From IMG/VR virus record IMGVR_UViG_3300034106_004144, positions 32,764 to 96,763 of that record: DNA of 64,000 nt; one strand, given 5' to 3'. Below are positions 32,545 to 61,147 of the stretch, piece by piece (the stretch's first letter is position 1; every line of letters starts with the position of its first letter). The DNA is from a virus. The notes under the pieces were generated by a model. It had not been told where the DNA came from, did not search any database, and was given only the letters and a program-made list of their open reading frames with translations. A program made the position numbers and the translations under genes.

Positions 32545-33048
32545 ATGAGAGATCATATATTAGAATATTGTTCCGTTGATATAATGGAAGAACACATGTT
32601 TTTGGACGTTATCTTCGATAACGCTTTACTTGGGGTCTGCTATACAATGGAAGATGGGTTTATCCCAGCTTATAATATCGATTTGGTCATCGATAAGATT
32701 GCCCAAAATGGTGATTTAACATATCAAGAAGCCCTTAATGTTTTTAATAATGATATTTTGGATCGTCATCCAATGATATCTTTTATAAAAAAAAGTGATG
32801 AGTCCGAAGAAGAATTATCGGATTATAATAAAGAAATGCTATTCTTACCAGATTATAACAAAAACACGCTTGTTGGTGTAAAAATACAACAAGATAGAAA
32901 TGTGATTGCTGTTTATGATGATTTTATGTGTGTTCAATCATTAATGGATGATGGTCTGACGGAAGAAGATGCTATTGAACATTTTGAGTACAACACTCGA
33001 GGTTCATATGTAGGAGAAAACACACCTGCGTTTTTAACAATGTTTTAA
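32545..33048 (+). CDS. Acidic small protein of unknown function
   Basis: 167 aa if started at the ATG at 32545; an upstream TTG at 32503 lies inside the promoter and would add 14 non-conserved residues. The protein is strongly acidic and has two internally similar parts: ILEYCSVDIMEEHMFLDVIF with DNALLGVCYTMEDGFIPAY, and later EEDAIEHFEYNTRG with YVGENTPAF. The repeated 'LTYQEALNVFNNDI' and 'LTEEDAIEHFEYN' helices suggest a duplicated helical motif. It may be a regulatory or inhibitory protein made early, since it precedes the helicase by 2 nt in a host-type-promoter operon. No family recognised. Confidence 0.6.
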   Translation: MRDHILEYCSVDIMEEHMFLDVIFDNALLGVCYTMEDGFIPAYNIDLVIDKIAQNGDLTYQEALNVFNNDILDRHPMISFIKKSDESEEELSDYNKEMLFLPDYNKNTLVGVKIQQDRNVIAVYDDFMCVQSLMDDGLTEEDAIEHFEYNTRGSYVGENTPAFLTMF

Positions 33049-41054: not shown

Positions 41055-44000
41055 ATGTCTGATTATAAAATATCGTTGAGTGAAGTCGAGTCGTTTTTAT
41101 TAGGTCATGATGACGAAAAATATATCGTAAATTTAGAGTACGATAAAGAAACGAATTTAATTTACAAGTTCAAACAACTACCTGACGGTACAAAAACGAC
41201 CGAAACCGAACCGCTTAAGTCCTTTATGTGGATGAAACACCTCGGCGAGTTAAAAGAAAACCTTAATTTTTACGGTAAAAACGACCTGAATATTCAAAAT
41301 GCTAGAAAAGAATACGGTATAACCATAACTGAACTTGATCACCAAAATCACCCTAAGCTTGAGACTGGTTACCAATATTTGGTAACTTGCGATCAGGGGC
41401 ATGAAAGGATGTTGCAGTTTTTTAGAAACGGAGGTCTCTATGGTGGTGTGTATGATAGACGTAATGGTATAAATGAAAACTTCTTGATTTTGAGTCCTAT
41501 TGAGCAATACCTAATATCAACAGGTAAAAGGCTTTTTAAGGGTTATGAGGACTACGATAATCTAGAAAAATTCGTATTCGACTTAGAGACAACTGGCTTG
41601 GATCCTAAAACTTCTAGAATATTTTTAGTTGGTTGTAAGTCAAATAATGGCTTTGAGGAATTGTTTGATTGTGAAACCGATGGTGACAATGCTGACAGAA
41701 GCGAAGTTGCCGCGATAGCTAAATTTTTTGCGGTTATCGATTATTTAAAACCAACAATAATTGGCGGGTACAATAGTGCAAACTTTGACTGGGATTTTAT
41801 TTTTAAAAGATGTGAGATACTTGGTATTGATATAACTAAAATCGCCAAAACACTAAAAAACGGTGAAGTTATTAATAATCGAGATGGTATATTAAAATTG
41901 GGTAATGAGATTGAAAACTATGTCCAAACAAATATGTTTGGATATTCGATTATTGATATCATACACTCAGTTAGACGTGCACAAGCGATTGACTCTAGTA
42001 TGAAATCAGCGTCATTAAAATACGTTTGTAAGTATAATAAAGTAGCAAAAAAGAATCGTGTTTATATTAAAGGTGATAAAATTGGCGCTTTATGGTCTAG
42101 CGATAAAAAATATTATTTTGATGATAAGACTGGTTCTTATTTAGAGATAAAACCAAAATTTGAAAAAATGGATTATATCACAAGAGAAATTGTTCGAGAT
42201 AATCCTAAAAAAATATTTGTTTTCGGTGATAATGATGAGCGTGATGGTTTTGGTGGCCAGGCTGGTCAAATGAGGGGTGAAAAAAATTCAATTGGAATAC
42301 CAACAAAGAAAAAACCAACAATGGATCCCGATGCGTTCTATTGCGATTCCGAATTTGAAGAAAATAAGAAAAAGATTAATTATGCGGTAACGCAAATTTT
42401 ATCAAAAATACGAGATGGTTATAGTGTTGTTTTTCCATCAGATGGTCTTGGTACTGGTTTAGCTGAATTACCAAAAAGAGCGCCAAAAACTTATCAGTTT
42501 TTAGTTGCAAATATTAATGCGATTGAAAAATATATTAACAATGATTGGATTGAAGTCGATGGTAAATATATAGTTAAAAGGTATTTGATGGATGACTTAT
42601 GGGAAACCATGGAAGTTGACAACATCTATAATCAAACATCTTTTATGTTGGCTAAAATGATCCCAACTACATATCAAAGAGTGTCAACTATGGGTACCGC
42701 TGGGTTGTGGAAACTACTAATGTTAACATGGTCTTATGAGAAAAATTTAGCAATACCAGTTTCGGACAGAAAAAGAGATTTTGTTGGTGGTCTATCAAGA
42801 TTATTAAAAGTTGGGTTTTCAAAAGACCTGAGAAAAATGGACTTTAACTCACTATATCCAGCTATACAATTAGCACATGATGTGTTCCCGTCTGTCGATG
42901 TTAGTGGTGTGATGAAATCTTTCTTAAAATATTTCCACTCTGAAAGATTTAAAGCAAAGGACTTGGCTAAAAAATATGGTAAAGAGGGTAATAAACAACT
43001 TGAGTCACTCTACAAAAGAAAACAATTACCGCTTAAAATCTTTATCAACTCGATGTTCGGTGCGCTTGGCGCCCCAAATGCGTTCCCATGGGCTGAAATG
43101 GATGTCGCTGAGGGTATAACATGTAGAGCTAGACAGTACCTCCGCTTAATGGTTAAATTCTTTATGAAAAGGGGTTACCAACCAACTGTACTTGACACTG
43201 ACGGTGTTAACTTCATGGCGCCAAGTACAGGTGAAGAATATTTTTATTATGTGGGTAAAGGTTATAATAGTGAAGTTGTTGCGGGTAAAGAATACAGAGG
43301 TGTACATGCCGTTGTTGCTGAATTTAATGATTTATATATGAAAGGCGAGATGGCACTTGGTTTAGATGGTATGTGGCCAGCGACACTAAATTTAGCTCGT
43401 AAAAACTACGCTCTACTTGAAAATGATGGTAGTATTAGTTTAACTGGAAATACGATTAAATCTAAAAAGCTACCAATTTATATTGAAGAGTTTTTGGATA
43501 AGTCTATTGTTTTACTTTTAAATGGTAAGGGTTATGAATTCGTCCAACTTTACTACGATTACATCGGTAAAATATGTGATAAAAAAATACCTTTGGCTAA
43601 AATCGCAACCAAAGCGAGGGTTAAAAAAACCATCGAGCAATATAGAAACAGAGGTGTTAATAAAAATGGGCAACCGTTACCAAAGCAAGCTCATATGGAA
43701 TTAGCTATTTTAAATAACATATCGGTTAGTTTGGGTGATACACTTTATTATGTAAATAACGGCACAAAAAAATCCCATGGCGATATTCAAACAACTAAAA
43801 AATGCAAACTAAAAGCAGCTGAAGTTAGATTGTATGAAATTAATAATGGTAAATCACCTGGCCCAGAGTATTATGATATAACTGAAAAAATAAATTGCTA
43901 TCTTCTTGATGAAAAACAAATGGAAGTTAACCCAGAAGCCGTTGGGGAATATAATGTTGAAAAATATGTTGCAATGTTTAATTCGAGAATCAAAGGACTT

Positions 44001-44261
44001 TTGGTTAATTTTGATATTAAGGTTAGAAACCAAATACTAATTAACAACCCAGAGGAAAAAAAGAATTGGATGGTTTCTGAACTTGAGATGGTTAATAGCC
44101 AACCAAATAAAGAATCTGATCAAGATACAATTGAAGAGTTGTTCACACCATCTGGTCTTGAAAAAGATTATTGGGGTAGATATAACTATAACCCAGATTT
44201 TTGGTTTACCGATAATACCAGCTTTACTATCCCAGGTTTAGGTCGAGAAGTACCAGTTTAA
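41055..44261 (+). CDS. 43: Family B DNA polymerase (gp43-like) with an inserted domain
   Basis: 1068 aa, versus 898 in T4. Exonuclease motifs: FDLETTGLDP with D176/E178, and NFDWDF near 243-248. Polymerase motifs: A DFNSLYP (596-602), B KIFINSMFGALG (661-672), C LDTDGVNF (713-720). Between exonuclease and palm, residues about 373-492 are a foreign module (KIFVFGDNDERDGFGGQAGQ, IGIPTKKKP, VVFPSDGLGTGLAELPKRAP) that resembles a free-standing phage protein family of unknown function, while flanking polymerase sequence continues normally (WIEVDGKYIVKRYLMDDLWE). All catalytic residues are present, so the enzyme should be active. It has its own host-type promoter. Confidence 0.95.
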   Translation: MSDYKISLSEVESFLLGHDDEKYIVNLEYDKETNLIYKFKQLPDGTKTTETEPLKSFMWMKHLGELKENLNFYGKNDLNIQNARKEYGITITELDHQNHPKLETGYQYLVTCDQGHERMLQFFRNGGLYGGVYDRRNGINENFLILSPIEQYLISTGKRLFKGYEDYDNLEKFVFDLETTGLDPKTSRIFLVGCKSNNGFEELFDCETDGDNADRSEVAAIAKFFAVIDYLKPTIIGGYNSANFDWDFIFKRCEILGIDITKIAKTLKNGEVINNRDGILKLGNEIENYVQTNMFGYSIIDIIHSVRRAQAIDSSMKSASLKYVCKYNKVAKKNRVYIKGDKIGALWSSDKKYYFDDKTGSYLEIKPKFEKMDYITREIVRDNPKKIFVFGDNDERDGFGGQAGQMRGEKNSIGIPTKKKPTMDPDAFYCDSEFEENKKKINYAVTQILSKIRDGYSVVFPSDGLGTGLAELPKRAPKTYQFLVANINAIEKYINNDWIEVDGKYIVKRYLMDDLWETMEVDNIYNQTSFMLAKMIPTTYQRVSTMGTAGLWKLLMLTWSYEKNLAIPVSDRKRDFVGGLSRLLKVGFSKDLRKMDFNSLYPAIQLAHDVFPSVDVSGVMKSFLKYFHSERFKAKDLAKKYGKEGNKQLESLYKRKQLPLKIFINSMFGALGAPNAFPWAEMDVAEGITCRARQYLRLMVKFFMKRGYQPTVLDTDGVNFMAPSTGEEYFYYVGKGYNSEVVAGKEYRGVHAVVAEFNDLYMKGEMALGLDGMWPATLNLARKNYALLENDGSISLTGNTIKSKKLPIYIEEFLDKSIVLLLNGKGYEFVQLYYDYIGKICDKKIPLAKIATKARVKKTIEQYRNRGVNKNGQPLPKQAHMELAILNNISVSLGDTLYYVNNGTKKSHGDIQTTKKCKLKAAEVRLYEINNGKSPGPEYYDITEKINCYLLDEKQMEVNPEAVGEYNVEKYVAMFNSRIKGLLVNFDIKVRNQILINNPEEKKNWMVSELEMVNSQPNKESDQDTIEELFTPSGLEKDYWGRYNYNPDFWFTDNTSFTIPGLGREVPV
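42171..42530 (+). other. Domain insertion in DNA polymerase (DUF7831-like)
   Basis: Encodes residues about 373-492 of the polymerase. Pattern: a strand (KKIFVFGDN), a Gly-rich loop (DGFGGQAGQMRGE), IGIPTKK, a helix (EFEENKKKINYAVTQIL), a strand and loop (VVFPSDGLGTGLAELP) and a final helix (KTYQFLVANI). This matches, to my recollection, a stand-alone domain found in T4-like phages and bacteria and catalogued as a domain of unknown function, distantly like macro domains. No splicing residues are present, so it is not an intein. Confidence 0.7.
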
Positions 44262-46882: not shown

Positions 46883-47071
46883 ATGGGTAAAACAATTAAA
46901 TTCTGCAAAAACAAATGCTGCCCAGTTGTTGAAATACAAGAAAATGCCATTGTCTTAGGTGACAAAAATGGCCCAGAAGGTATTACAACATGGACAAAAA
47001 GTCAATTTAAAGACTTTGTTGAGGCGGCAAAAAATGGTAAATTTGATAAAGTTGTCGAAGAAACCAATTAA
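46883..47071 (+). CDS. Small Cys-containing protein, unknown
   Basis: 62 aa. The start MGKTIKFCKNKCCPVVEIQE has three closely spaced Cys (CxxxCC), which may bind a metal, followed by VLGDKNGPEGITTWTKSQFK and a final amphipathic helix (DFVEAAKNGKFDKVVEE). The WTKSQFKDFVEAAKNGKFD part resembles a small family seen in phages and bacteria, but I cannot name it. It closes the late operon, just before a strong terminator. Confidence 0.55.
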   Translation: MGKTIKFCKNKCCPVVEIQENAIVLGDKNGPEGITTWTKSQFKDFVEAAKNGKFDKVVEETN

Positions 47072-47092: not shown

Positions 47093-47124
47093 AAAGGGGT
47101 TAAGTGATTAACCCCTTTTTTTTT
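47093..47124 (+). terminator. Intrinsic terminator of the small-gene late operon
   Basis: AAAGGGGTTAA (47093-47103) pairs with TTAACCCCTTT (47108-47118) around a 4-nt GTGA loop, then a run of Ts to 47124. It separates the late operon from the sugar block. Confidence 0.9.
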
Positions 47125-47149
47125 GCGTAATATTTCTTATTATTGTTAT

Positions 47150-47945: not shown

Positions 47946-47976
47946 TTGTTTTTTAGCGTATTTTTTTTTATTATTG
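47946..47976 (+). promoter_or_regulatory. Bacteroidota-type promoter of the sugar block
   Basis: TTG (47946-47948), exactly 20 nt, TATTATTG (47969-47976; one mismatch to TAnnTTTG), 22 nt before the ATG at 47999. A TATAAATA on the plus strand at 47990-47997 is too close to the start to be the promoter. This suggests early or middle expression of the glycosyltransferase operon. Confidence 0.6.
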
Positions 47977-50684: not shown

Positions 50685-51356
50685 ATGGATACTTTTTCAA
50701 TAACAATTGCTTTCTCAACGAGAAAAATAAATCAAGAGTATGTTGAACATGTTAAAAAATCATGTGCATGCCCAGATTTAGAGTTGTTGGTTTATGAAAA
50801 CAATGGTGATAAAAGTTTAACTGAAATTTATAATGAAGTTTTAAAAACAGCAAAAAATGATATCATTGTTTTCTGTCATGATGATTTAATTTTTGATACA
50901 CCTTATTGGGGTAGAAAATTAGTTAAACATTTCAAAAGAAACCCAGATTACGGTATAATTGGAATTGCTGGTACCAACAATTTAATAAATGGTAGGTGGT
51001 GGTCGTTAAGGGAATCAATGCACGGCATTGTCAATCATACGGATGGTAATAGAAAATGGACAAGTATGTTCTCTCAACCACAAGGCAATAAAATAAAACA
51101 AATGGTTATACTTGATGGTTTGTTTTTTGCTGTTGATAAGACAAAAATTAAACATGGTTTTGATGAGGATTTTAATGGGTTTCATTTTTACGACTTATCA
51201 TTTTGCATACCAAATCATTTAGATGGTGTTAAGATTGGTGTTATAACGGATATAATGATCACACACTTATCTGTTGGTATGACAAACCAAAAATGGGAAG
51301 ATAATAAAAATTTATTGGAAAAAAAATATGCGGATAAGTTTCCGATGAGAATATGA
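50685..51356 (+). CDS. GT-A glycosyltransferase, StrF/GT2-like
   Basis: 223 aa. It begins with the GT2-like strand FSITIAFSTRKIN, has VYENNGDKSLTEIYNEVLK, the donor-site motif VFCHDDLIFD (DD), IGIAGTNNLINGRWWS, and DGLFFAVDKTKI with GFDEDFNGFHFYDLSFCI, the usual order of the StrF-like glycosyltransferase family. It would transfer a sugar from a nucleotide donor. Its stop overlaps the start of the next gene by 4 nt. Confidence 0.85.
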   Translation: MDTFSITIAFSTRKINQEYVEHVKKSCACPDLELLVYENNGDKSLTEIYNEVLKTAKNDIIVFCHDDLIFDTPYWGRKLVKHFKRNPDYGIIGIAGTNNLINGRWWSLRESMHGIVNHTDGNRKWTSMFSQPQGNKIKQMVILDGLFFAVDKTKIKHGFDEDFNGFHFYDLSFCIPNHLDGVKIGVITDIMITHLSVGMTNQKWEDNKNLLEKKYADKFPMRI

Positions 51357-52015
51357 AAAATATTAGTGGTTTAAAAAATATCCATGTGGGTGAAGATATC
51401 TACATTTTAGCATCTGGTAAATCTGTTGATTTTTTTGATGAAGATTTTTTTGATGGTAAAATACTTATCGGTGTTAACCAAGCGTATAAATTTACTTGGT
51501 GTGATTACCTGGTTAGAAAAGAAGTTAAATTTATTAAACAGAGTATAGAAACAGATTCCGTTGTTATTGTTTCTGAGTACGATAGTGGTAATTTAAATTC
51601 TGGTGAACAAAAGTTAAATACAAACAAAATTGATCACCCTAATTTATATTATTTTGAACACTTGGATAATCAACATGCAAGGCTTGACACATCTGTTTTT
51701 GGTACAGATAAAATTGTCGTTAGTTTCTCAACTATTACATCAGCCATACACATTGCAGCCTACATGGGCGCTAAAAACATTATTTTAATTGGTCATGATT
51801 GTGGTACGATTGATGGCGAAATGACGTTTAAAGGGTATTATGATTCCATTAAAGATACACCATGGGTGAGCTGGGATCAGTATAAATCTTGGTTAAAAAT
51901 AATTGAAGGGCAAACGATAGAAGTTAAAAAACAAGTAAAAAAACACTATGGTGCTAATGTTGTATCAATGCTACCGTTTGTTTCACTGAACCTAGAAAAT
52001 CATTTATATTTGTGA
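51353..52015 (+). CDS. DUF115/MptE-like protein, possible sugar or lipid-linked transferase
   Basis: 220 aa. The front DIYILASGKSVDFFDEDFFD, then ILIGVNQAYKFTWCDYLVRK and, in the middle, SFSTITSAIHIAAYMGAKNI with ILIGHDCGTIDG, is the pattern of the DUF115 group: a Rossmann-like core with G-K-S, G-V-N-Q-A and G-x-D motifs. Members in bacteria are often found in surface-polysaccharide and sialic-acid-related loci, sometimes near glycosyltransferases such as that for motility-associated (Maf) glycans. It overlaps the NeuA-like gene by 4 nt. Confidence 0.7.
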   Translation: MKNISGLKNIHVGEDIYILASGKSVDFFDEDFFDGKILIGVNQAYKFTWCDYLVRKEVKFIKQSIETDSVVIVSEYDSGNLNSGEQKLNTNKIDHPNLYYFEHLDNQHARLDTSVFGTDKIVVSFSTITSAIHIAAYMGAKNIILIGHDCGTIDGEMTFKGYYDSIKDTPWVSWDQYKSWLKIIEGQTIEVKKQVKKHYGANVVSMLPFVSLNLENHLYL

Positions 52016-52644
52016 TAAAATACATTATACCAGCAAGACGAAACTCAAAAGGGTTCCCATTTAAAAATAGAAAATTAATAAATTATACGTTAGATAATTT
52101 ACCAAAAAACGTATATGACGATGTTATTTTAACTACCGATGATGAAAAGTTATTGGAAATTGGTTTAGAATATGGTATAAAATGTATTAATAGAAATCCA
52201 AGTTTAGCTTTAGATAAAACTTCAACTAAAGAAGTTATGGATGACCTAAAGTTTCAGGGTATTATTACTAACACAGACATTGTTGTTATGTTATATTTAA
52301 CATATCCGCAAAGAAATTGGTTAGATATAACTAACGCTTTACAGTTTTTTGATAATAAAAATGCAAAAAGCCTTTTGTGTAAAAAAGAAATAACAACAAC
52401 CCACCCATATTTATATTTACTTGAAGTTGGTGATTTTAAGGGTAAACAATTAATCCCCCACAATCTATACAGAAGGCAAGATTATCCAAAAGTTTTTGAA
52501 ATATCTCACTTTATATCGATTTTTAAAGTCAGTGAACTCAAAAATTTAAATAATAATCTTTATAATAACGACACCGTTTTTTATCCAATTGATGATATAA
52601 TTGATGTTGACACTGATAAAGATTTAGAAAGGTTTTTAGAATAA
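52012..52644 (+). CDS. neuA: CMP-nonulosonate (sialic acid) cytidylyltransferase, NeuA-like
   Basis: 210 aa, begins with GTG overlapping the preceding stop. IIPARRNSKGFPFKNRKL (residues 5-22) is the CMP-Neu5Ac synthetase signature (family IPAR-x-x-SKG-x-x-x-KN), followed by VILTTDDEKLLEI, ALDKTSTKEVMDDL, VVMLYLTYPQRNWLDI and YRRQDYPKVFEISHFISIF. The reaction is CTP plus sialic acid to CMP-sialic acid plus PPi. The size matches family members lacking an extra C-terminal domain. With NeuB (58548) and a GT29 transferase (52644) it completes an activation and transfer route. Confidence 0.85.
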   Translation: MIKYIIPARRNSKGFPFKNRKLINYTLDNLPKNVYDDVILTTDDEKLLEIGLEYGIKCINRNPSLALDKTSTKEVMDDLKFQGIITNTDIVVMLYLTYPQRNWLDITNALQFFDNKNAKSLLCKKEITTTHPYLYLLEVGDFKGKQLIPHNLYRRQDYPKVFEISHFISIFKVSELKNLNNNLYNNDTVFYPIDDIIDVDTDKDLERFLE

Positions 52645-53795
52645 TGGGTATTTTTATAAAAAATAAAACAAAAAGGGTACAAAAAGATGACACAAAACAA
52701 CCAGTGTTAACTAATACTGCAACTAATAAATCTTTAATAGGTGAAGAGGTTGTCGTTGCTGAAAAAAAAGCAATAAAAAAAGGATTTGGGGATAAAAAAA
52801 TTGTAAACAAAGAACCAGTAAAGGCCACAATTAATTCTGTGGCGGTTGGTAAAGAGGAAAAAAAGTCCGTGTTGTTATTTGAAAACAACGAAAAAAATGA
52901 ACCGACCACAAATTCATTAATTAATAAAATTAATAAATCTTCAGGTAGAAATTCAATTTTTGACAAAGTTGTTGCCCCAGAAATTAAAAATTCAAATGTA
53001 GCTAAATCAAATGACAAAGTTGTTAACGACATTTATGATAAAGCTAGAAAAAATATTAGTTTTATAAAAAATAAAAATAATAAGTACTATGATTTTGTTT
53101 TCACTAAAGGGTACATAAATGAAAAAGATATTAAACATGTTAACACTGAACTAGATAAACAATTAAATAATTTAAAAATAAATCCGTCAACAATGGATTT
53201 ATACTTTTTTAAATCGTTTATAAAAGATAAAACAATCGCTCTTATAGCTAACTCGTCTGATTTATTAAATAAAAAACTTGGTGCGGAAATAGATTCTCAT
53301 GACATTGTAGTTAGATTTAATTCATATAAAATATTAAAAGAGGATACTGGGGAAAAATTAACTATACATGTTAGCATTTATTTACAAAATGAAAATTTAA
53401 ATAATTTTGCACCTATTAGATTTATCCTTTCGGGTAATAAAATAAACTGGGCTAAAAAAATATTAACATTAAATAAGTTTAACCAATCTACAATATTAAA
53501 GTATAATCACCACTCAACATTACCAGGTAATTTTAGAGACGATTCGCCAACCACAACGGGATTCGCCACCTTAATTTTACTACTTAAAATTGGTGGTTTT
53601 CAAAAAATTAATATGTTTGGTTTTGATTTTTATCAAAACGGTAATGATAGTTTATTTAGAACGGACGTTGGTATGGAATCCCCAATATCTACCGTTCATG
53701 ATTATTTCTTCGAAAAAGAATTTATGATGGAATATTCATATGAATATGACGATAAAAAAAATATAATTACTTTTTATGATTATAGCACATTTTAA
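52644..53795 (+). CDS. GT29-type sialyltransferase-like protein
   Basis: 383 aa. Residues 198-226 carry the large sialylmotif: IALIANSSDLLNKKLGAE, then IDSHDIVVRFN. A small sialylmotif-like stretch, SPTTTGFATLILLLKIGGFQ and then MFGFDF, lies at 301-326, and HDYFFEKEF at 352-360 recalls the very small motif with its catalytic His. The order and spacing are those of the eukaryotic-type GT29 family, known in only some bacteria and viruses. The first 180 residues are a Lys/Asn-rich linker of unknown use. It directly follows the NeuA-like gene (1-nt overlap), whose product would supply the donor. There is no predicted membrane anchor. Confidence 0.7.
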   Translation: MGIFIKNKTKRVQKDDTKQPVLTNTATNKSLIGEEVVVAEKKAIKKGFGDKKIVNKEPVKATINSVAVGKEEKKSVLLFENNEKNEPTTNSLINKINKSSGRNSIFDKVVAPEIKNSNVAKSNDKVVNDIYDKARKNISFIKNKNNKYYDFVFTKGYINEKDIKHVNTELDKQLNNLKINPSTMDLYFFKSFIKDKTIALIANSSDLLNKKLGAEIDSHDIVVRFNSYKILKEDTGEKLTIHVSIYLQNENLNNFAPIRFILSGNKINWAKKILTLNKFNQSTILKYNHHSTLPGNFRDDSPTTTGFATLILLLKIGGFQKINMFGFDFYQNGNDSLFRTDVGMESPISTVHDYFFEKEFMMEYSYEYDDKKNIITFYDYSTF

Positions 53796-54624
53796 AGAAA
53801 CGCCAATAGCACATGCACCAGAAGCGATTAGTGATGTTATAAATAAATATACAGATCATAAATCGTATGTTTTTGGCTACGGTTACCCGAATAAAAAATT
53901 AATACCAAAAACCGATATACTCCATTTACATAATAAGGATAGAAATTATAATTTTAATAAAAAAGTAATACAGTATCATAGTGAACCTTTTAGGGTAACA
54001 TTGGATGTAAAAACAAAAAAATTAGTAATAGCTCAGTACCATGCAACCTTACCAGAATATAATAATTGTACCGTTGTTAGAAACCCAATTGACATTTATG
54101 ATGTAAAATTTTTACCAAAATACCAAAATAAAAAAATAAGAATTGGTTATTCTCCGTCAACAGTCAGACCACTATCAATTTGGGCAGATAAAGGATATAC
54201 TGAAACATATCCCATTTTACAAAAAATAAAATCTAAATACGGAAACTCCGTTGAAATTGATATAATTGTAAATGTTTCATTAGACGAATGTTTAAAAAGA
54301 AAATCTCTATGTAATATTTTTATTGATGAAGTAAAAACAATATCATATCATAGATCTGGGTTAGAATCGTTATCAATGGGTATTCCAACAATATGTTCAA
54401 TTGGCCCATCCGTTGAAAAACTTTTATTAAATTCTTCTGGTGCGCCAAATAGCCCGTTTATTAATGTAAATCATAATCAGTTAGAAAAAAAACTAATTGA
54501 ATTAATAAATTTGGGGGTGGGTAATTTGTTGGAAATTGGTTACAATAATAGACTTTGGATGGAAAAATATTGGTCACCAGATACTATCGCAAACGAATAT
54601 ATTGAAATATATAAAAAAATATAA
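53776..54624 (+). CDS. GT-B glycosyltransferase
   Basis: 282 aa. IIAHFKETPIAHAPEAISDV, HLHNKDRNYNF, RIGYSPSTVRPLSIWADKG, IDIIVNVSLDECLKRKSLCN and then YHRSGLESLSMGIPTICSIG: the last (G-L-E-S-L-S-M-G-I-P-T) is the donor-binding EX7E-type region of GT4-like enzymes. It is short, with a reduced acceptor domain. It overlaps the GT29-like gene by 20 nt and is followed 1 nt later by a GT-A gene. Confidence 0.8.
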   Translation: MIIAHFKETPIAHAPEAISDVINKYTDHKSYVFGYGYPNKKLIPKTDILHLHNKDRNYNFNKKVIQYHSEPFRVTLDVKTKKLVIAQYHATLPEYNNCTVVRNPIDIYDVKFLPKYQNKKIRIGYSPSTVRPLSIWADKGYTETYPILQKIKSKYGNSVEIDIIVNVSLDECLKRKSLCNIFIDEVKTISYHRSGLESLSMGIPTICSIGPSVEKLLLNSSGAPNSPFINVNHNQLEKKLIELINLGVGNLLEIGYNNRLWMEKYWSPDTIANEYIEIYKKI

Positions 54625-54625
54625 A

Positions 54626-55297
54626 ATGAAAAAATATTCAATTATAATACCAACGATGTGGATGTCTAGTCATTTATTTAAAATGTTAGACTTTTATGAG
54701 GAAAATGAATTAATACAAGAGGTTATAATTATAGATAATGCGCCAGAAAAGGGGCAACCAATACCAAAACAATTAAGTAAGTTAAAACTACATACTAAGG
54801 GTAAAAACATATATGTTAACCCAGCCTGGAATTTTGGTGTTTCATTAGCAATTAGTGATTATATTATAATTGCTAATGATGATATATTATTTAATAAAAA
54901 AGATTTTGATGAGTTACTAAATAAGTCTTTTGAGTTTTTAAACGAAAACACCATAATTGGCCCATCAATGTATTGTTTTAAACAAAATCCCGAGAATTAT
55001 AGTTTGCGATATAATGGTTTAAAAATCGAAAAGCTTAATGTAGGATTTACTTATGGTTTTGGTACATTTATGATAATGAAAAAAAACTCTTATACAATAA
55101 TACCAGATGATATTTTAATATTTCATGGAGACGTCATTCAACACAGAACAAATGATGTGTTTTTATTTAGTGGTATTGAGATAGATACACCGATGAGCGT
55201 AACACTTAAAAGTGATCCACAAATACATAATTTAGCTAAATTAGACCACGCCAAATCATTAAAGTATGATGTCAAAAAATTAATTAAATTTAAATAA
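54626..55297 (+). CDS. GT-A glycosyltransferase, GT2-like
   Basis: 223 aa from ATG 54626 (an earlier in-frame ATG at 54536 lies inside the preceding gene and adds only non-conserved residues). KYSIIIPTMWMSSHLFKMLD, VIIIDNAPEKG, NPAWNFGVSLAISDYIIIAN with ND and DILFNKKDFDE give the GT2 fold with an N-D-D donor site. The C terminus (LFSGIEIDTPMSVTLKSDP) is less conserved. It is 1 nt before the aminotransferase gene. Confidence 0.8.
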   Translation: MKKYSIIIPTMWMSSHLFKMLDFYEENELIQEVIIIDNAPEKGQPIPKQLSKLKLHTKGKNIYVNPAWNFGVSLAISDYIIIANDDILFNKKDFDELLNKSFEFLNENTIIGPSMYCFKQNPENYSLRYNGLKIEKLNVGFTYGFGTFMIMKKNSYTIIPDDILIFHGDVIQHRTNDVFLFSGIEIDTPMSVTLKSDPQIHNLAKLDHAKSLKYDVKKLIKFK

Positions 55298-55942
55298 ATG
55301 GCTAACGGAATTTACAAAATAACAGAAGAATTTGAAAAAGCGTTAAGTGATTACACAGGCGCACCATATGTTGTTACATTAGATAACCAATCAAACGGTT
55401 TATTTTTATCATTATACTACGAAAATAATATTAAAAAAAGTATAACAACCCCAAAAATTACAATACCATCAAGAACATACCCATCGGTACCGTGTGAAAT
55501 AATACACGCGGGCTTAAAAGTTGATTTTTATCCTATTGAGGGGACAAAATTAAAAGGCGCTTATGAATTAAAGGGTAGTAATGTCTGGGATTCCGCTTTA
55601 AGGTTTACCGCAAATATGTATTTACCATCAACACATATGTGCATATCTTTTACGGGCCCATATAAACATTTTAAATTAAGTAAAGGAGGTGCTATTTTAA
55701 CTGATAGCCATGAAGCTTATTTATGGTTTAAGAGGGCTAGATATAGTGGTAGGAGGGAATGCTCTTATCATGACGATCATTTTGATATGTTGGGTTGGAA
55801 TTTTTATATGATGCCAGAATTAGCGGCACGTGGGTTGTTGTTAATGAATCAATTTTACAACATCGATGGCACAAAAAAAGAAAACGCGGATTTAGAATTA
55901 CCATATCCAGATTTATCAAAGTTTGATATTTATAAACAATGA
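55298..55942 (+). CDS. DegT/DnrJ-type sugar aminotransferase, shortened
   Basis: 214 aa, against about 370 for the family. Visible are VVTLDNQSNGLFLSLYY (the 'TxSGTxAL'-like strand, here modified), IPSRTYPSVPCEIIHAGLKV, WDSA (D98, PLP N1 partner), FTGPYKHFKLSKGGAILTD (K123 or K126 as PLP lysine) and GWNFYMMPELAARGLLLMNQ, the usual dimer interface. The C-terminal substrate-binding domain is missing. Family members put an amino group onto nucleotide-linked keto sugars, a step in pseudaminic and legionaminic acid synthesis. The truncation makes full activity uncertain. It overlaps the next gene by 4 nt. Confidence 0.75.
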   Translation: MANGIYKITEEFEKALSDYTGAPYVVTLDNQSNGLFLSLYYENNIKKSITTPKITIPSRTYPSVPCEIIHAGLKVDFYPIEGTKLKGAYELKGSNVWDSALRFTANMYLPSTHMCISFTGPYKHFKLSKGGAILTDSHEAYLWFKRARYSGRRECSYHDDHFDMLGWNFYMMPELAARGLLLMNQFYNIDGTKKENADLELPYPDLSKFDIYKQ

Positions 55943-56661
55943 AACACATAATTGTCTTTTTGGCTTATGAAAATTTTGATATTATTAAAAAATCATTTAA
56001 TTCGTTAAAAAATTGCGATTCGGATTTTTTTATTATTGAAAATAACTCTAAAAATTCAAATATCATAAAAGAATTTTTTATAAATGAAAATTTAGTCGGG
56101 TATATTCAATTTATAGAAAATGCTGCGGCAAATGCTGTAAATATTTTTATTAAAAAATATTATAACTTATTATCCCAATATGATTATGTGACAATAACTG
56201 ATGGTGATTTATTTCTATATGACGCAACAGAAACATTTGGTGAAATAATTTCATCGTTTAATCATAATAATTGTTATGTTTGTGGCGTTGCCTTATATAA
56301 AGGTAATTATTATGAAAATACAACCAATAGAATTATTGGTACCGAATATTATATTGAACATATGTTAAGTAAGTCGGAACATAAATTAGAGGCAATAAAA
56401 GGTAGAACAGGTAATCATTTATTGACCTTTAATAAAGAAAGTCTACACGTTATTAAAGACATCCATTATATTGATTCAAATATTTTTAAAAAAATAAAAG
56501 AGCTGGGTGGATCTTGTTATAGAACAACAAAAAATTTGGCCTATCATTTAACTTGGGATGTATATTTTGATGGTAATCCATATTATGAGAATAAAAAAAA
56601 TAATTTAAAAGAAATCTGGTCACAATCTGATTTTGATTTTAAATATAATGTTATTATATGA
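55939..56661 (+). CDS. Glycosyltransferase-like protein (GT-A)
   Basis: 240 aa. HIIVFLAYENFDIIKKSFNS, FFIIENNSKN, YDYVTITDGDLFLYDATETF (the D-G-D of a DxD donor site) and CYVCGVALYKG are GT2-like; the end (LAYHLTWDVYFDGNPYYENK) is also seen in these families. It is 4 nt overlapped with each neighbour. It probably adds a sugar to the same glycan as the flanking enzymes. The divergence from standard GT2 is moderate. Confidence 0.7.
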   Translation: MKHIIVFLAYENFDIIKKSFNSLKNCDSDFFIIENNSKNSNIIKEFFINENLVGYIQFIENAAANAVNIFIKKYYNLLSQYDYVTITDGDLFLYDATETFGEIISSFNHNNCYVCGVALYKGNYYENTTNRIIGTEYYIEHMLSKSEHKLEAIKGRTGNHLLTFNKESLHVIKDIHYIDSNIFKKIKELGGSCYRTTKNLAYHLTWDVYFDGNPYYENKKNNLKEIWSQSDFDFKYNVII

Positions 56662-57245
56662 AAAGAGCATTAATTGGTGCTGGTGGTTTTGCACGTGAAA
56701 TTAAATCGCATATTGGTGATGAATCAATGATATGTTTTGTTGATGATAGTTACTATGTTGGTGATACCTATACGTTACCATTAAGTCACTTTAATCCAAA
56801 TGAATATGAGGTATTGATTGCTATCGGAGACCCACGTGCAAGATATGAGATAAGTAATCGCTTACCTAAAGATACTAAATATTTTACGCATATTGATAAA
56901 CGAGCAAATATATTAGATGAAAATATTGAAATTGGCGAGGGTAGTATTATTTGTGCTGGCTGCATATTAACAACAAATATTAAAATAGGTAAACATGCCC
57001 ATTTAAATTTACAAACAACAATCGGGCATGATACAACCATAGGTAACTTTTTTACAACAGCCCCTGGAGCAAAAATATCTGGTAATTGTGTAATACACGA
57101 TTTAGTTTACATTGGGACAAACGCTTCTGTTAGAGAAAAAATAACGATCCATAGCTTAACAACAATAGGTTTAAATGCTGGTGTGGTAAAAGATATAACT
57201 GAACCAGGTGTTTACGGCGGAACGCCATGTAAAAAAATTAAATAA
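56658..57245 (+). CDS. neuD: NeuD-like sugar O/N-acyltransferase
   Basis: 195 aa. An N-terminal Rossmann-like nucleotide-sugar-binding part (MKRALIGAGGFAREIKSHIG, VLIAIGDPRARYEI) is followed by a left-handed beta-helix of hexapeptide repeats (IGEGSIICAGCILTTNIKIG, HAHLNLQTTIGHDTTIGN, VYIGTNASVREKITIHS). The order is that of NeuD/PglD-type acetyltransferases, which O- or N-acetylate sialic acid or amino sugars using acetyl-CoA; the His of IGHDT is the candidate base. It sits in a sialic-acid-type block, in agreement with NeuD. Confidence 0.85.
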   Translation: MKRALIGAGGFAREIKSHIGDESMICFVDDSYYVGDTYTLPLSHFNPNEYEVLIAIGDPRARYEISNRLPKDTKYFTHIDKRANILDENIEIGEGSIICAGCILTTNIKIGKHAHLNLQTTIGHDTTIGNFFTTAPGAKISGNCVIHDLVYIGTNASVREKITIHSLTTIGLNAGVVKDITEPGVYGGTPCKKIK

Positions 57246-57246
57246 T

Positions 57247-57861
57247 ATGCAAAATACAGTAGAATCTTTAAATTTAATTAAAAAAATATCAGATGAGATT
57301 AATAATATGACATTTCATCACCATTATTATGTTTTATATGATATAGCTAAAGAATTTGGAACCTCACCAATTAACTATGTTGAAATCGGTTGTTATGCTG
57401 GGGGCTCCGCTTGTCTTATGCTACAAAGGCCAAATACTAACGTAATTAGTATTGATTTAGGTGTACCAATTAAACCAGAAGTAGTTAAAAATAATGTAAA
57501 AAAATTAAATATTTTAAATAACAATTACAATTATATACAAGGTAACTCACAAAAAAATGAAACGGTTAGTGAGTTAAAAAAATTGGTTGAATTGATAGAT
57601 ATTTTATTTATTGACGGTGACCATAGTTATAATGGTGTTATTAACGATTTTAATTTGTATTCTAAAATGGTAAAACCAGGTGGTTATATTATTTTTGATG
57701 ATTATAACGACAAACAACATAGCCCTCAAGTTAAAGTAGCTGTTGACGACTTATTAAAAAATAACTATGAGTATGAAATATTTGGTACATTACCAAATAT
57801 TTTTGGCGCTAGGCCTAGTGAATTAAAAGAGGGTAATTGTTTTATAATTAAAAAAAAATAA
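57247..57861 (+). CDS. Class I SAM-dependent methyltransferase
   Basis: 204 aa from ATG 57247 (a longer frame from 57208 overlaps the NeuD-like gene and is not needed). NYVEIGCYAGGSACLML is the SAM-binding motif I, NVISIDLGVP motif II, and DILFIDGDHSYNGVINDFNL with VKPGGYIIFDDYND are the motif of the cephalosporin-hydroxylase and rhamnosyl O-methyltransferase-like family acting on sugars. It would methylate a sugar hydroxyl. It is between NeuD-like and glycosyltransferase genes in the same operon. Confidence 0.8.
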   Translation: MQNTVESLNLIKKISDEINNMTFHHHYYVLYDIAKEFGTSPINYVEIGCYAGGSACLMLQRPNTNVISIDLGVPIKPEVVKNNVKKLNILNNNYNYIQGNSQKNETVSELKKLVELIDILFIDGDHSYNGVINDFNLYSKMVKPGGYIIFDDYNDKQHSPQVKVAVDDLLKNNYEYEIFGTLPNIFGARPSELKEGNCFIIKKK

Positions 57862-57862
57862 T

Positions 57863-58543
57863 ATGTTAGCAATTGTCATATCCACGTATCAAAGAAATGA
57901 TGGTACAACACCCATTCATTTAACCAAAGCATTAACTTCGATTAAAAATCAAACATACCAAAATTATATGGTATTTTTAATTGGCGATCGCTATGATAAT
58001 AATGATGAGTTTATAAGATTAGCGACATCAATAATTGATTCTGATAAAATGGTGTTTGTTAATTTACCAAATGCTGTTGAAAGAGAAAAATATCCGTTTG
58101 GTGATGTACGTCTGTGGTCATCTGGCGGCGTAAATGCAGTTAATTTCGGTATTAAACTTGCTTTGGAACAAAATTATAATTATATTTGTAGACTAGATCA
58201 CGATGACTGGTGGGCGCCAGAACATTTGGATTTAATAAAAGATAAATTAAACGAAGATCATATAATAATAGCAACGAAAGGTATGCATTTCACTGATAAA
58301 ATATTACCTGTAAAAGATAGTAACCCATTCTACCCTAAAAGTTCAGATTTATTACATTCGTCTGTTTGTATAAATTTTAAAAAAACTCCGTTAAGGTATC
58401 GCGATGTTTTTGCCGAAGAAGGTAGACCTTATGCGGCTGATGCTGATTTATGGGATAGATTGTCTTATTATATGGTAAAAAACAATAAAACAGGTTATTT
58501 AATAAACAAGGTAACGTGTTATCATAGTAATGAAAGAAGATGA
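57863..58543 (+). CDS. GT-A glycosyltransferase, GT2-like
   Basis: 226 aa. MLAIVISTYQRNDG starts like GT2 enzymes, followed by SIKNQTYQNYMVFLIGDRYD, GGVNAVNFGIKLALEQNYNY, ICRLDHDDWWAPEHLDL (the D-H-D-D donor site) and AADADLWDRLSYYM (acceptor side). Standard GT2 fold without membrane helices. It ends 4 nt before the NeuB-like gene. Confidence 0.85.
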   Translation: MLAIVISTYQRNDGTTPIHLTKALTSIKNQTYQNYMVFLIGDRYDNNDEFIRLATSIIDSDKMVFVNLPNAVEREKYPFGDVRLWSSGGVNAVNFGIKLALEQNYNYICRLDHDDWWAPEHLDLIKDKLNEDHIIIATKGMHFTDKILPVKDSNPFYPKSSDLLHSSVCINFKKTPLRYRDVFAEEGRPYAADADLWDRLSYYMVKNNKTGYLINKVTCYHSNERR

Positions 58544-58547
58544 CTAA

Positions 58548-59393
58548 ATGAAAAAGGTAAAAATAATAGCGGAAATAGGGATTAATCACAATGGCGATAT
58601 TGAAATTGCCAAACAATTAATTATGGTGGCGAAAGCGGCTGGATGTGATTACGTAAAATTTCAGAAGAGAAACCCAGATGTGTGTGTTCCAGAAGACCAA
58701 AAAAATAAAATTCGCCAAACGCCATGGGGTGAAATGACATATCTGGAATACAAATGGAGAACTGAATTTAATTATGAACAATACTCTGAAATTGATGAGT
58801 TTTGCAAACAAATCGGTATAAAATGGTTTGTGTCTGTTTGGGACAAAGATAGCGTAGAGTTTATGGATATCTTTAGAAGATTAGGTAAAGCCTACGATGG
58901 TACAATGAAAATACCATCAGCGTTGATTACGGACTTAGAACTTTGTAAATACGCAAGAGCCAATTGTGATAAATTAATTATTTCAACTGGAATGAGTACT
59001 GAAAAAGAGGTTAGAGCCTGTATTAGTACCTGCAATCCAGATGTTGTTATGCACACAAACTCAACTTACCCATGTCCTGTTGAAGAATTAAATTTGAATT
59101 ACATAAATTGGCTTAAAAGTTGGTACCCAGGCTTAGATATAGGATATAGTGGTCACGAGTATGGTTTAGTTACAACATTTGCAACAATACCTATGGGTGT
59201 CACTTGGATTGAAAGACATATCACCTTGGATAGAAATATGTGGGGTTCCGATCACTCAGCTTCAATAGAACCATCTGGTTTATTCAAGCTAGTTAAAGGT
59301 ATACGTGACATTGAGTCATCTTTAAGTATCCCAATGAAACCTAGAGAAGTTTTTGGCGGGGAATTAGCTAAACAAAAAAGCTTGAGGAAATAA
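58548..59393 (+). CDS. neuB: NeuB-like nonulosonic acid synthase (short)
   Basis: 281 aa. The TIM-barrel signature is clear: IIAEIGINHNGDIEIAKQLI (7-26), VKFQKRNPD, MKIPSALITDLELCKYA, LIISTGMSTEKEV, HTNSTYPCPVEELNLNYINW, GYSGHEYG and ERHITLDRNMWGSDHSASIE, with the metal-binding His and Glu residues of the family. It condenses phosphoenolpyruvate with N-acetylmannosamine (or a related sugar) to give a sialic-acid-type sugar. Bacterial NeuB is about 340-350 aa and ends in a SAF (antifreeze-like) domain; here the protein stops just after KQKSLRK, where SAF would begin, so the domain is missing. Confidence 0.85.
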   Translation: MKKVKIIAEIGINHNGDIEIAKQLIMVAKAAGCDYVKFQKRNPDVCVPEDQKNKIRQTPWGEMTYLEYKWRTEFNYEQYSEIDEFCKQIGIKWFVSVWDKDSVEFMDIFRRLGKAYDGTMKIPSALITDLELCKYARANCDKLIISTGMSTEKEVRACISTCNPDVVMHTNSTYPCPVEELNLNYINWLKSWYPGLDIGYSGHEYGLVTTFATIPMGVTWIERHITLDRNMWGSDHSASIEPSGLFKLVKGIRDIESSLSIPMKPREVFGGELAKQKSLRK

Positions 59394-59719
59394 TGAACAT
59401 TTACGTAGACGTAGATAACACAATAACCGAAACTTCTGGTATGGATTATCAGAATGCTAAACCTATATACGCGAAAATCTCAATCATAAATAAATTATAC
59501 GATTTAGGCCATACAATTACTTATTGGACAGCTAGGGGTTCCATTTCAGGTATTGACTATTATTCACTCACGAAATTACAACTAGATTCGTGGGGTGTAA
59601 AATATCACAATTTCATGGTTGGAAAACCAGCTTTTGATCTTTTAATTGATGATAAAACAATAAACAACATTAATGAAAACCTTTTTACATGGGCAACCAA
59701 AGAAGAAGAAAAAAACTAA
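59393..59719 (+). CDS. HAD-family phosphatase-like protein
   Basis: 108 aa, small and cap-less. IYVDVDNTITETSG has the D-x-D-x-T nucleophile motif (D5, D7), ITYWTARGSISG the second motif with Thr, KPAFDLLIDDKTIN the D-D metal site. It matches the short HAD group found in capsule and sugar loci, so it might dephosphorylate a sugar phosphate precursor, for example in the nonulosonate route. Its ATG overlaps the NeuB stop (1 nt) and its own 3' end overlaps PhoH by 31 nt. Confidence 0.75.
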   Translation: MNIYVDVDNTITETSGMDYQNAKPIYAKISIINKLYDLGHTITYWTARGSISGIDYYSLTKLQLDSWGVKYHNFMVGKPAFDLLIDDKTINNINENLFTWATKEEEKN

Positions 59720-60434: not shown

Positions 60435-60465
60435 GTTTACTTTTTACACTTTAATCATAAGTTTG
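60435..60465 (+). promoter_or_regulatory. Possible Bacteroidota-type promoter embedded in an inverted repeat
   Basis: TTT (60435-60437), 20 nt, TAAGTTTG (60458-60465), a perfect -7 box but a weak -33. The -7 box lies inside the left arm of the inverted repeat 60453-60517, which fits an operator overlapping the promoter. Confidence 0.5.
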
Positions 60466-60517
60466 CAGAAATAACGCAAAAATAAACGTTTTGCAAAAAT
60501 AATGCAAACTTATGATT
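60453..60517. repeat. Perfect 15-bp inverted repeat spanning a promoter and a start codon
   Basis: AATCATAAGTTTGCA (60453-60467) and TGCAAACTTATGATT (60503-60517) are exact reverse complements, 35 nt apart. A nested pair GCAAAA (60475-60480) and TTTTGC (60489-60494) lies inside. The left arm holds the -7 box TAAGTTTG and the right arm holds the ATG (60512-60514) of the following gene. In RNA the arms could pair and hide the start codon. Confidence 0.9.
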
Positions 60518-61147
60518 ATTGGTATTACTATTAACAACATTGTTAGAGACCACATAAGCCAACTTAAAAAGGCTTATACCCTATTAACAGAAGAGGAGGC
60601 TATTGAGCCAATTAACCCCTTTGATTTGGAATCTTCTTTTCCAAATAAAACATCAACAGAATTGATACAGGAGTTTACTGTAACCGAAACTAGTGATGAA
60701 ATGCCATTAAATGAAGTTAACGAAGAATTTAATGTGTATGAGTTTATGTACCACGAAGCCTCATTTGAGATCTTTGGTAGATCTGAGGAATCTATTGATG
60801 GTATTGTTCGCAAATTAAAAGAATACGAAAAAAAATTAAAGGTGAATATTGTTTTAATTAACAAGGAGTCGCCGAGATCAAAGTGTGCTACATTATTCTT
60901 TTTATCAAAAAACGGATTTGATTTTGATCGAATTTTATTCCCAAAAGATTATAAGAATTTTTGGGATGAAATTGATGTGTTAATAACCGACAACCCAAAG
61001 GCACTCAAGAAAAAACCTAAAAATAAGTATTCAATAAAGGTTAAAAATGATTTTAACATTGACATAAAATCTGATTTTACTATTATTGACTTAAATGATT
61101 ATAAAACTTTAAAAAGTATAATAAAAATGATAAAAGAAAAAGTTTAA
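60512..61147 (+). CDS. HAD-like 5'-nucleotidase relative lacking the catalytic Asp
   Basis: 211 aa. The order MIIGITINNIVRDHISQLKK, EFMYHEASFEIFGRSEESID, CATLFFLSKNGFDFDRILF and DVLITDNPKAL parallels a HAD-like 5'-nucleotidase family of Bacteroidota phages whose start reads IGIDINxVxRD. Here the nucleophile Asp is replaced (IGIT instead of IGID), so phosphatase activity is probably lost; the C-terminal Asp motif (LITDNP) remains. The start codon is inside the right arm of the 15-bp inverted repeat. It stands apart from the sugar operon with its own regulatory region, 1 nt before the next glycosyltransferase gene. It may serve as a structural or regulatory protein. Confidence 0.55.
   Translation: MIIGITINNIVRDHISQLKKAYTLLTEEEAIEPINPFDLESSFPNKTSTELIQEFTVTETSDEMPLNEVNEEFNVYEFMYHEASFEIFGRSEESIDGIVRKLKEYEKKLKVNIVLINKESPRSKCATLFFLSKNGFDFDRILFPKDYKNFWDEIDVLITDNPKALKKKPKNKYSIKVKNDFNIDIKSDFTIIDLNDYKTLKSIIKMIKEKV

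Follow-up and report, generated by a model that had tools for sequence, protein, structure and literature searches.

A candidate phage-borne module for nonulosonate synthesis and transfer, with a short NeuB-type synthase and a GT29-family transferase

Introduction

Nonulosonic acids are usually seen as bacterial and eukaryotic products. Bacterial NeuB-NeuA clusters, which make N-acetylneuraminic acid (Neu5Ac), legionaminic acid or pseudaminic acid, encode a phosphoenolpyruvate (PEP)-condensing synthase, a cytidylyltransferase and a transferase with a sialyltransferase fold. Here we analyze a run of thirteen genes that encodes the same three components, along with a NeuD-type protein, at positions 50685-59719 (+ strand) of a 64,000-nucleotide stretch of viral DNA (hereafter, the window; positions 32,764 to 96,763 of IMG/VR record IMGVR_UViG_3300034106_004144). 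The run differs from the bacterial clusters in that it is phage-borne, its synthase is too short to contain a SAF domain, an extra HAD phosphatase is present, and no epimerase of the PF02350 or NanE families is detectable in the record.

Among phages, the closest described systems are the lipopolysaccharide (LPS)/O-antigen auxiliary metabolic genes of T4-like marine phages, which likewise form clusters of glycosyltransferases and sugar enzymes in a hypervariable region; the run described here, in contrast, goes beyond glycosyltransferases, with a set for making, activating and transferring an acidic cap sugar. No description of a phage nonulosonate pathway was found in searches of open-licence papers. 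The run is more than a chance set of sugar genes, namely, a member of a recurrent phage module apparently built for nonulosonate, the product, target and timing of which we infer below. We consider it likely that this is a phage-encoded, cytoplasmic nonulosonate-capping module fed by host sugar.

The gene run and its genomic context

The 96,763-base virus record that contains the window is part of a 298,833-base record, G001, which matches the 32,764 bases before the window and the whole window at 100% (blastn, exact pieces). The first 126 bases of G001 are repeated 145 bases before its end, and this terminal recurrence suggests that G001 may be a complete genome. Within the run, gaps between genes do not exceed 4 bases and overlaps reach about 20. 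For two genes, ATG codons at 54626 and 57247, read from the translations, are the likely starts, instead of the mechanically assigned TTG at 54536 and GTG at 57208. The genes, with their best-supported annotations, are as follows (CMP, cytidine monophosphate).

50685..51356, + strand: Glyco_tranf_2_5 / GT2-type glycosyltransferase, conserved in the lineage (PF13712, E 5.5e-26)
51353..52015, + strand: sialyltransferase-fold protein, GT42/Maf-like, probable CMP-nonulosonate transferase (phrog_4603 'alpha-2;3-sialyltransferase', 6.1e-8)
52012..52644, + strand: NeuA-like CMP-nonulosonate cytidylyltransferase, GTG start (PF02348, 3.3e-11)
52644..53795, + strand: GT29 sialyltransferase (PF00777, 9.8e-10)
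53776..54624, + strand: glycosyltransferase-like protein of no confident family (no Pfam match over cut-off)
54626..55297, + strand: GT2 glycosyltransferase, variable cargo (PF00535, 7.8e-6)
55298..55942, + strand: short DegT-type aminotransferase, 214 aa, variable cargo (PF01041, 6.5e-10)
55939..56661, + strand: protein without a family match, variable cargo (0 Pfam families; GC 23.4%)
56658..57245, + strand: NeuD/PglD-type sugar acetyltransferase, variable cargo (PglD_N, 3.1e-9; TIGR03570, 157.8 bits, cut-off 160.8)
57247..57861, + strand: sugar O-methyltransferase-like protein, variable cargo (PF13578, 2e-17; RMNT_CmcI, 1.2e-8)
57863..58543, + strand: GT2 glycosyltransferase, variable cargo (PF00535, 2.9e-9)
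58548..59393, + strand: SAF-less NeuB-type nonulosonate synthase (PF03102, 3.1e-60)
59393..59719, + strand: small HAD phosphatase, 108 aa (phrog_1238, 2.7e-25; TIGR01689, 8.4e-9)

An earlier annotation made without database searches (the sequence-only reading) had described a tightly packed run, and every open reading frame (ORF) that it named is present at the same coordinates on the + strand. Its NeuB, NeuA, GT29, NeuD, DegT, HAD and methyltransferase assignments were all matched in family searches; to this list of parts we add that the NeuB (281 aa) and the DegT protein are short, and that the gene at 51353, which had not been singled out, is a second protein with a sialyltransferase fold.

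These genes could, in principle, be functionless passengers of bacterial origin, or host DNA contaminating a viral contig. The GC content is lower in several middle genes, reaching the lowest value among the genes measured in the 55939 gene, and a virome gene table that lists neuB (126) and neuA (11) comes from a study that warns of cellular contamination (PMC3877843). However, the run is flanked on the same record by genes for dUTPase, PhoH, DNA polymerase and other phage proteins, its frames are open, and its active sites are conserved over dozens of phage contigs. On these grounds, contamination by host DNA was rejected, and we regard this explanation as a whole as very improbable.

Conservation of the module across phages

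At the core of this recurrent phage module, NeuA and NeuB are constant. A collection of 109 IMG/VR stretches with NeuB relatives, 80 of which were kept, yielded, with the window, 81 loci, and 64 loci after removal of identical NeuBs, near-copies remaining. Profile searches detected NeuA in 58 of these 64 loci, HAD in 57, GT29 in 27, the GT42/Maf-type protein in 26, and either transferase in 45; NeuA, NeuB and HAD occur together in 52. Counted by single-linkage clusters, the corresponding numbers for the same loci are 58, 59, 32, 23 and 42, with 53 for the trio. NeuB directly adjoins NeuA in 33 loci and HAD in 22. In the 39 loci that span 19.5 kb or more, 38 encode NeuA, 36 HAD and 30 a recognized transferase; for the sole exception with regard to NeuA, L046, a NeuA match lies in the record G013, about 2 kb outside the stretch. 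In a separate search of 15 whole records, NeuA was found in 14 (13 over the cut-off). Because the core is conserved in so many phage loci, a chance grouping is unlikely; the pathway proposed from the sequence gains weight from the joint occurrence in phages of NeuA, NeuB and a protein with a sialyltransferase fold.

Among 50,697 annotated phage records, the window NeuB matches 3, NeuA 2, and two GT29 queries taken from relatives 1; the window GT29 itself matches none of these records. One record among the NeuB and NeuA matches is labelled Moritella viscosa and looks bacterial. The record LR756508 (484 kb) encodes five GT29 genes, NeuA, NeuB and HAD within about 19 kb, and in Marine virus AG-345-L05 a DegT-type gene, NeuB, HAD and a weak GT29 match lie in a row.

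The GT2-type gene at 50685 has counterparts with 52-95% identity in the 8 related contigs used for comparison, and the 53776 gene is present in 3 of the 8. In the sister contig L005, six genes of the middle region (the 54626 GT2, DegT, 55939, NeuD, methyltransferase and 57863 GT2) are 82-90% identical to those of the window; among the contigs compared, L005 alone has the 54626 GT2 in full length. L003 and L004 lack full-length versions of these six genes, despite NeuBs that are 97% and 91% identical. Thus, the middle region turns over fast between conserved borders, given that the cargo is kept in L005 and missing in full length from L003 and L004 notwithstanding their close NeuBs. The DegT-type protein has 214 aa, compared with 360-380 for the profiles, and conserves D98, K123, G130 and G131 across 17 distinct phage homologs. 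Of the pathway parts originally proposed, NeuB, NeuA and GT29 hold, whereas DegT, NeuD and the methyltransferase are swappable cargo, and the HAD is not specific to the pathway.

The NeuB-type synthase

The window NeuB scores 204.1 bits against PF03102 (cut-off 22.1) and ends about where a SAF domain would start. It matches 8 distinct PDB sequences, pseudaminic, spore-coat and sialic acid synthases among them, and the best NCBIfam models are NeuB_NnaB (TIGR03569; 202.5 bits, cut-off 399.65) and PseI (148.6 bits), so that the protein falls within, not outside, the nonulosonate families. The catalytic-type residues E9, K37, Q39, K121, H203, H224 and D235 are invariant in the 30 rows of the alignment (A1), as is F38.

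The 63 distinct intact phage NeuB ORFs all have 270-297 aa, end near an SLRK motif and share many conserved residues; since this length is too short for a SAF domain, the phage NeuBs lack one. These figures refer to ORFs in the range of 255-320 aa. A further ten ORFs labelled NeuB are all shorter, none longer: the two halves of the split L055 gene and eight second copies (191-253 aa, 17-29 bits). A profile search for the SAF domain (PF08666) gave no match in 9 phage records, G001 included. The PDB provides a precedent for a short synthase: 6ncs, a chain of 290 aa entered as sialic acid synthetase. The eight second copies adjoin NeuB in L022, L024, L025, L034, L038, L041, L058 and L061, and are possibly distant paralogs.

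The 63 phage NeuBs were thinned at 80% identity to 46 representatives and placed, together with cellular ORFs no shorter than 250 aa, in a quickly built phylogenetic tree of 109 rows. Branch support is from SH-aLRT only, and cellular NeuBs below 325 aa were counted as SAF-less on length. Six longer NeuBs (336-408 aa) are split from all short ones at SH-aLRT 100. The 46 phage NeuBs and 9 rows from contigs of metagenome-assembled genomes (MAGs) form one branch (SH-aLRT 99), which adjoins a cellular branch of 45 rows and three deeper rows. The phage label is impure on this tree: 8 changes are needed, and the well-supported branches force at least 1. Binned phage contigs may account for some of the 9 MAG rows; of the MAG loci, L089 also encodes NeuA and a 51353-type protein, and L094 a NeuA scoring 212 bits. 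In other MAGs (L116, L112 and L148), short cellular NeuBs recur with a 406 aa PseC-like aminotransferase and a 351 aa radical SAM/SPASM-like protein, labels that come from the annotation of L116 and were extended to the other MAG loci by similar sizes; this set could represent an unfamiliar nonulosonate cluster.

The cytidylyltransferase and the HAD phosphatase

The window NeuA scores 43.9 bits against PF02348 (cut-off 22.6) and matches, over residues 5-207 of 210, the CMP-N-acetylneuraminic acid synthetase 1eyr (E 6.2e-12), as well as the PseF model (3.8e-13; 49.6 bits, cut-off 205.7). Residues R9, S12, K18, N19, R155, Q156 and D200 are conserved in at least 97% of 53 distinct phage sequences. 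NeuA also matches cytidylyltransferase models for 3-deoxy-D-manno-octulosonic acid (Kdo), at E 1.7e-4 and weaker, in line with the alternative of an eight-carbon, Kdo-like product, or some other ulosonate, in place of a nonulosonate. PseF and the CMP-Neu5Ac synthetase, however, fit NeuA far better, the synthase is of the NeuB type (E 3.1e-60), and the transferases have sialyltransferase folds, all of which renders a Kdo-like product improbable.

The HAD protein scores 35.4 bits against TIGR01689 (cut-off 162). Its residues D6, D8, T10, T46, K78, D82 and D87, which include the DxDxT/T/K/D set, are conserved in at least 97% of 55 sequences. The HAD matched TIGR01689 and NF046079; it did not match NF058599, the family of phosphatases acting on the 9-phosphate of 2-keto-3-deoxynononic acid (Kdn-9-P), at E up to 0.1. 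Because its family is found in 375 of the annotated phage records, compared with 3 for NeuB, the HAD is weak evidence for the module, and it was rejected as proof of a 9-phosphate route.

Two candidate CMP-sugar transferases

GT29 sialyltransferases are best known from animals. The mammalian ST3Gal, ST6Gal and ST8Sia enzymes share with the phage protein the fold, a long motif with IDSHDxVxRFN, and a terminal His-x4-Glu, and differ in that the phage cores have about 180-280 aa, are 16-31% identical to 52644 outside its near relatives, and in some relatives follow a GT8 domain. The 52644 protein scores 38.7 bits against PF00777 (cut-off 23), with a core at about residues 150-383 and a poorly conserved stretch comprising the first 150 residues. 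A profile (A4) of 26 phage relatives, built without three poorly aligned rows of the alignment A2 and with three other rows trimmed, matches a mammalian alpha-2,3-sialyltransferase over its full length at 5.4e-23 and CstII chains at about 1e-13; taken singly, 23 of the 26 members match PF00777. For the AlphaFold2 model of 52644 (pLDDT 81.2), all 30 Foldseek matches with E of at most 0.001 are GT29 enzymes (best E 8e-9). The protein carries IDSHDIVVRFNS, TTTG and HDYFFE, the L, S and VS motifs of the family, and its H352 is a conserved histidine. On sequence and model evidence, the prediction that 52644 is a GT29 CMP-sugar transferase is well supported.

In a sample of 247 genomes from the phylum of G025 (the genome of locus L091, with a Flavobacteriales label; probably Bacteroidota), no GT29 was found over the cut-off, with 2 weak matches, and none was found in 14 control genomes.

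The GT8 domain occurs in the 52644 relatives L004:7128-9020, L007:8170-10005 and L009:8173-10005, where the C-terminal part aligns loosely with the GT29 core (in L004 and L009; 20.7 bits in L007). The N-terminus of 52644, MGIFIKNKTKRVQK (window 52644-52720), has similar counterparts in the much longer GT8 versions of L004 and L009, and is possibly a targeting or anchoring peptide.

The 51353 protein is comparable with the GT42 (CstI/CstII) and Maf enzymes, of which the CstII type acts on lipooligosaccharide and Maf glycosylates flagellin in the cytoplasm. Its gene adjoins neuA. The sequence similarity is weak, and its use as a transferase is a prediction: the E values at which the family profile (A3) matches bacterial sialyltransferases are 0.0009-0.014, and unrelated chains appear from 0.029. 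The structural model (pLDDT 84.5) has CstII as its top Foldseek match (3.2e-5) and Maf (5mu5, Z 14.2) as its top VIA match; because HPPK (8sd5) also reaches Z 12.2, the CstII/Maf fold is not diagnostic. In six loci (L007 and L015-L019, some of them near-copies of each other), the slot of the 51353-type gene before NeuA is filled by a GT29-type gene of 177-179 aa, and no 51353-type profile match was detected in these loci, as if one CMP-sugar transferase had replaced another. A 51353-type domain hidden in the 477-481 aa GT2_5 proteins of the same loci was considered and rejected, the second half of these proteins having matched GT2-type queries only. The assignment of 51353 as a CMP-sugar transferase is moderately supported by these comparisons.

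Proposed pathway and its sugar

In the pathway we propose, the SAF-less NeuB would join PEP to a hexose or hexosamine from the host pool, or to its 6-phosphate, the enzyme class being assigned by homology and the substrate being predicted. The HAD would take off the phosphate if the product is a 9-phosphate, and NeuA, also classed by homology, would form the CMP-sugar. The GT29 protein 52644, the 51353 protein, or both would move the sugar onto an acceptor glycan made by GT2/GT4-type enzymes. The swappable aminotransferase, acetyltransferase, methyltransferase and extra glycosyltransferases, which demonstrably turn over, would vary the glycan among close relatives.

G001 has no match to PF02350 (UDP-GlcNAc 2-epimerase, NeuC-type) or PF04131 (NanE); PF02350 is present in 2 of the 9 phage records. 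No constant sugar-supply enzyme was found near the phage NeuB in the 64 loci, where a dehydratase-type cluster (representative closest to dTDP-glucose 4,6-dehydratase) occurs in 29 and a WecB-type epimerase cluster in 9. The sugar is probably supplied by the host.

Several observations weigh against the proposed module. No dedicated sugar-supply enzyme accompanies it in G001. Model scores fall short of the cut-offs, for NeuB those of NeuB_NnaB and PseI and, by a wide margin, for NeuA and HAD those of the equivalog or subfamily models; the HAD family is moreover common in phages without NeuB. In L055, NeuB is split into two ORFs, and 9 of the 39 long loci have no recognized GT29 or GT42/Maf protein. 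In 52644, the His-Tyr pair of the GT29 consensus (motif III) is not seen. The 51353 protein also resembles the MptE/HPPK fold (PF01973, 28.7 bits, cut-off 34.6), and no histidine is found in the invariant columns of its alignment, H11 being nearly invariant.

A sharper form of the nonulosonate-capping module specifies the product as Kdn (or Neu5Ac), made from mannose-6-phosphate or N-acetylmannosamine-6-phosphate and PEP, dephosphorylated by the HAD, and activated with CMP. We put this forward tentatively, as a possibility well short of an even chance. Such a phosphorylated route needs no epimerase, consistent with the missing PF02350 and PF04131 matches, and would account for the NeuB-HAD-NeuA trio, with a HAD carrying the conserved catalytic set in most of the loci. 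PMC6200933 describes a three-step Kdn pathway with a mannose-6-phosphate start in Bacteroides thetaiotaomicron and Prymnesium parvum, which follows the same three-enzyme logic of synthase, HAD phosphatase and CMP-synthetase without an epimerase. Several cellular SAF-less NeuBs adjoin a NeuA fused to a Kdn-9-P-phosphatase-like domain, and one of the three genomes that pass the Kdn-9-P phosphatase cut-off (189.7 bits) has a locus, L157, where a NeuB of 288 aa shares the run with a NeuA. However, the two loci with the top-scoring Kdn-9-P phosphatases (221.6 and 213.7 bits) have a 347 aa NeuB, a NeuA-type ORF of 370-400 aa was found in 7 of 62 loci of the cellular scan, and the phage HAD belongs to another, smaller family that is widespread in phages without NeuB. 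The comparison is also biased, the cellular loci having been picked for their phosphatase match. As a mark of Kdn-9-P synthases, the SAF-less NeuB gave mixed results: of five comparison loci, all from the family of a Prevotella-titled genome, two have the 347 aa NeuB and three have NeuBs of 288-300 aa.

Site and target of sugar transfer

One priming-transferase and two flippase families (PF02397, PF13440 and PF01943) had no match in the 9 phage records; polymerase and ligase families were not part of this search. The highest 19-residue mean hydropathy in the cassette proteins is 1.46, with no strongly hydrophobic segment. Given the missing flippase and priming-transferase matches and the lack of such segments, transfer would most likely be cytoplasmic, either onto virion proteins or onto a nascent host surface glycan that the host exports.

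If the target is the virion, capsid or tail proteins would be glycosylated in the cytoplasm, altering adsorption or shielding the particle; we give this a little less than an even chance. The lack of strongly hydrophobic segments in the cassette proteins and the absence of the tested export families from all nine records agree with it, as does the best alignment of 51353 with the flagellin-glycosylating Maf. Fold likeness does not, however, reveal the acceptor, and the CstII-type enzymes that top the Foldseek matches modify lipooligosaccharide.

Alternatively, and here too our belief stops somewhat short of half, nascent LPS or capsule of the host envelope would be capped before export by the host, which would hide receptors and keep other phages out. 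Glycosyltransferase and LPS genes of pelagimyophages have been read as agents of host-envelope change (PMC7029224), as have NeuA and KdsA of a marine viral genome, with reference to earlier work (PMC5332604). The quick swapping of genes in the cassette fits a surface under changing selection. Against this target, the phage would depend on host machinery, having no match to the tested priming-transferase or flippase families, and early timing lacks promoter support (see below).

Beyond the single locus, large phages might own a separate branch of sialic acid biology, in which a SAF-less synthase clade, GT29 and CMP-activation use an ordinary sugar phosphate of the host to make a capped, fast-diversifying glycan for the virion or the infected cell, independently of any host sialic acid pathway; we consider this doubtful. 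If it is true, prokaryotic viruses are a reservoir of the GT29 family. Genes for synthesis, activation and transfer recur together in phages, with a synthase that is shortened and a transferase family lacking in the sample of the probable host phylum. If active, the set would let viruses cap themselves or infected cells with sialic-acid-like sugars in any host able to provide a common sugar, would offer minimal NeuB and GT29 enzymes for biochemistry, and would raise the question of the origin of GT29.

Host assignment and promoters

Scarce Shine-Dalgarno sequences and promoters of the form TTTG-N17-22-TAnnTTTG are marks of Bacteroidota. In the upstream regions of G001 (L164-L178), this promoter pattern occurs in 25 of 163 (0.38 in shuffles), and a Shine-Dalgarno-like pentamer precedes 4 of 277 genes. 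The phage thus probably infects Bacteroidota.

The host-type promoter that the sequence-only reading had placed at 47946 is CTTG-N20-TATTATTG, with one mismatch in each Bacteroidota-type box; of 2000 random stretches of 150 bases, 954 contain an equally loose match, so that the candidate is no better than chance. Overall, the phage-borne synthase, CMP-transferase and sialyltransferase families of that reading stand, and this promoter and the cargo genes as pathway parts do not. A strict host-type match lies at 47015-47045, but a stem resembling a terminator (47093-47118) separates it from the run, and the number of strict matches in the window, 8, is close to the 6.27 expected by chance. Given this stem and the near-chance count, early expression of the run is no more than possible. 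A sigma-70 scan found 92 sites, compared with 85.8 in shuffles, and the repeated TTTTTDGCGTAT motif gave no clear signal (6 vs 3.52).

A second motif, of the TATTTATA type, occurs in 18-26 of the 163 upstream regions (about 2.6 in shuffles), with 12 of 17 copies starting 19-25 bases before a gene, and is plausibly a late promoter. It is absent before 47147 and 47999; one copy, within the preceding gene, lies shortly before 55939. Two copies of a 28-base element that share 86% identity are found at 47118-47145 and 47949-47976, each before a gene, and a scan of G001 allowing up to 6 mismatches found just two further, weaker places.

Other features of the genome

At 281450-283095, G001 encodes a Gmd-type dehydratase followed by a reductase-like protein of 266-270 aa, with a second, weaker Gmd match near 281-283 kb; the phage may also make a GDP-6-deoxysugar. 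In the window, residues ~375-545 of the DNA polymerase ORF (41055-44261) alone match hypothetical proteins of Caulobacter, Mesorhizobium and huge phages, and could be a domain inserted into the polymerase. A Pfam scan of the 2,408 aa protein encoded at 4123 found DUF2272. An inverted repeat at 60452-60518, with 30-base arms that are 80% complementary, extends into the start of the gene at 60512.

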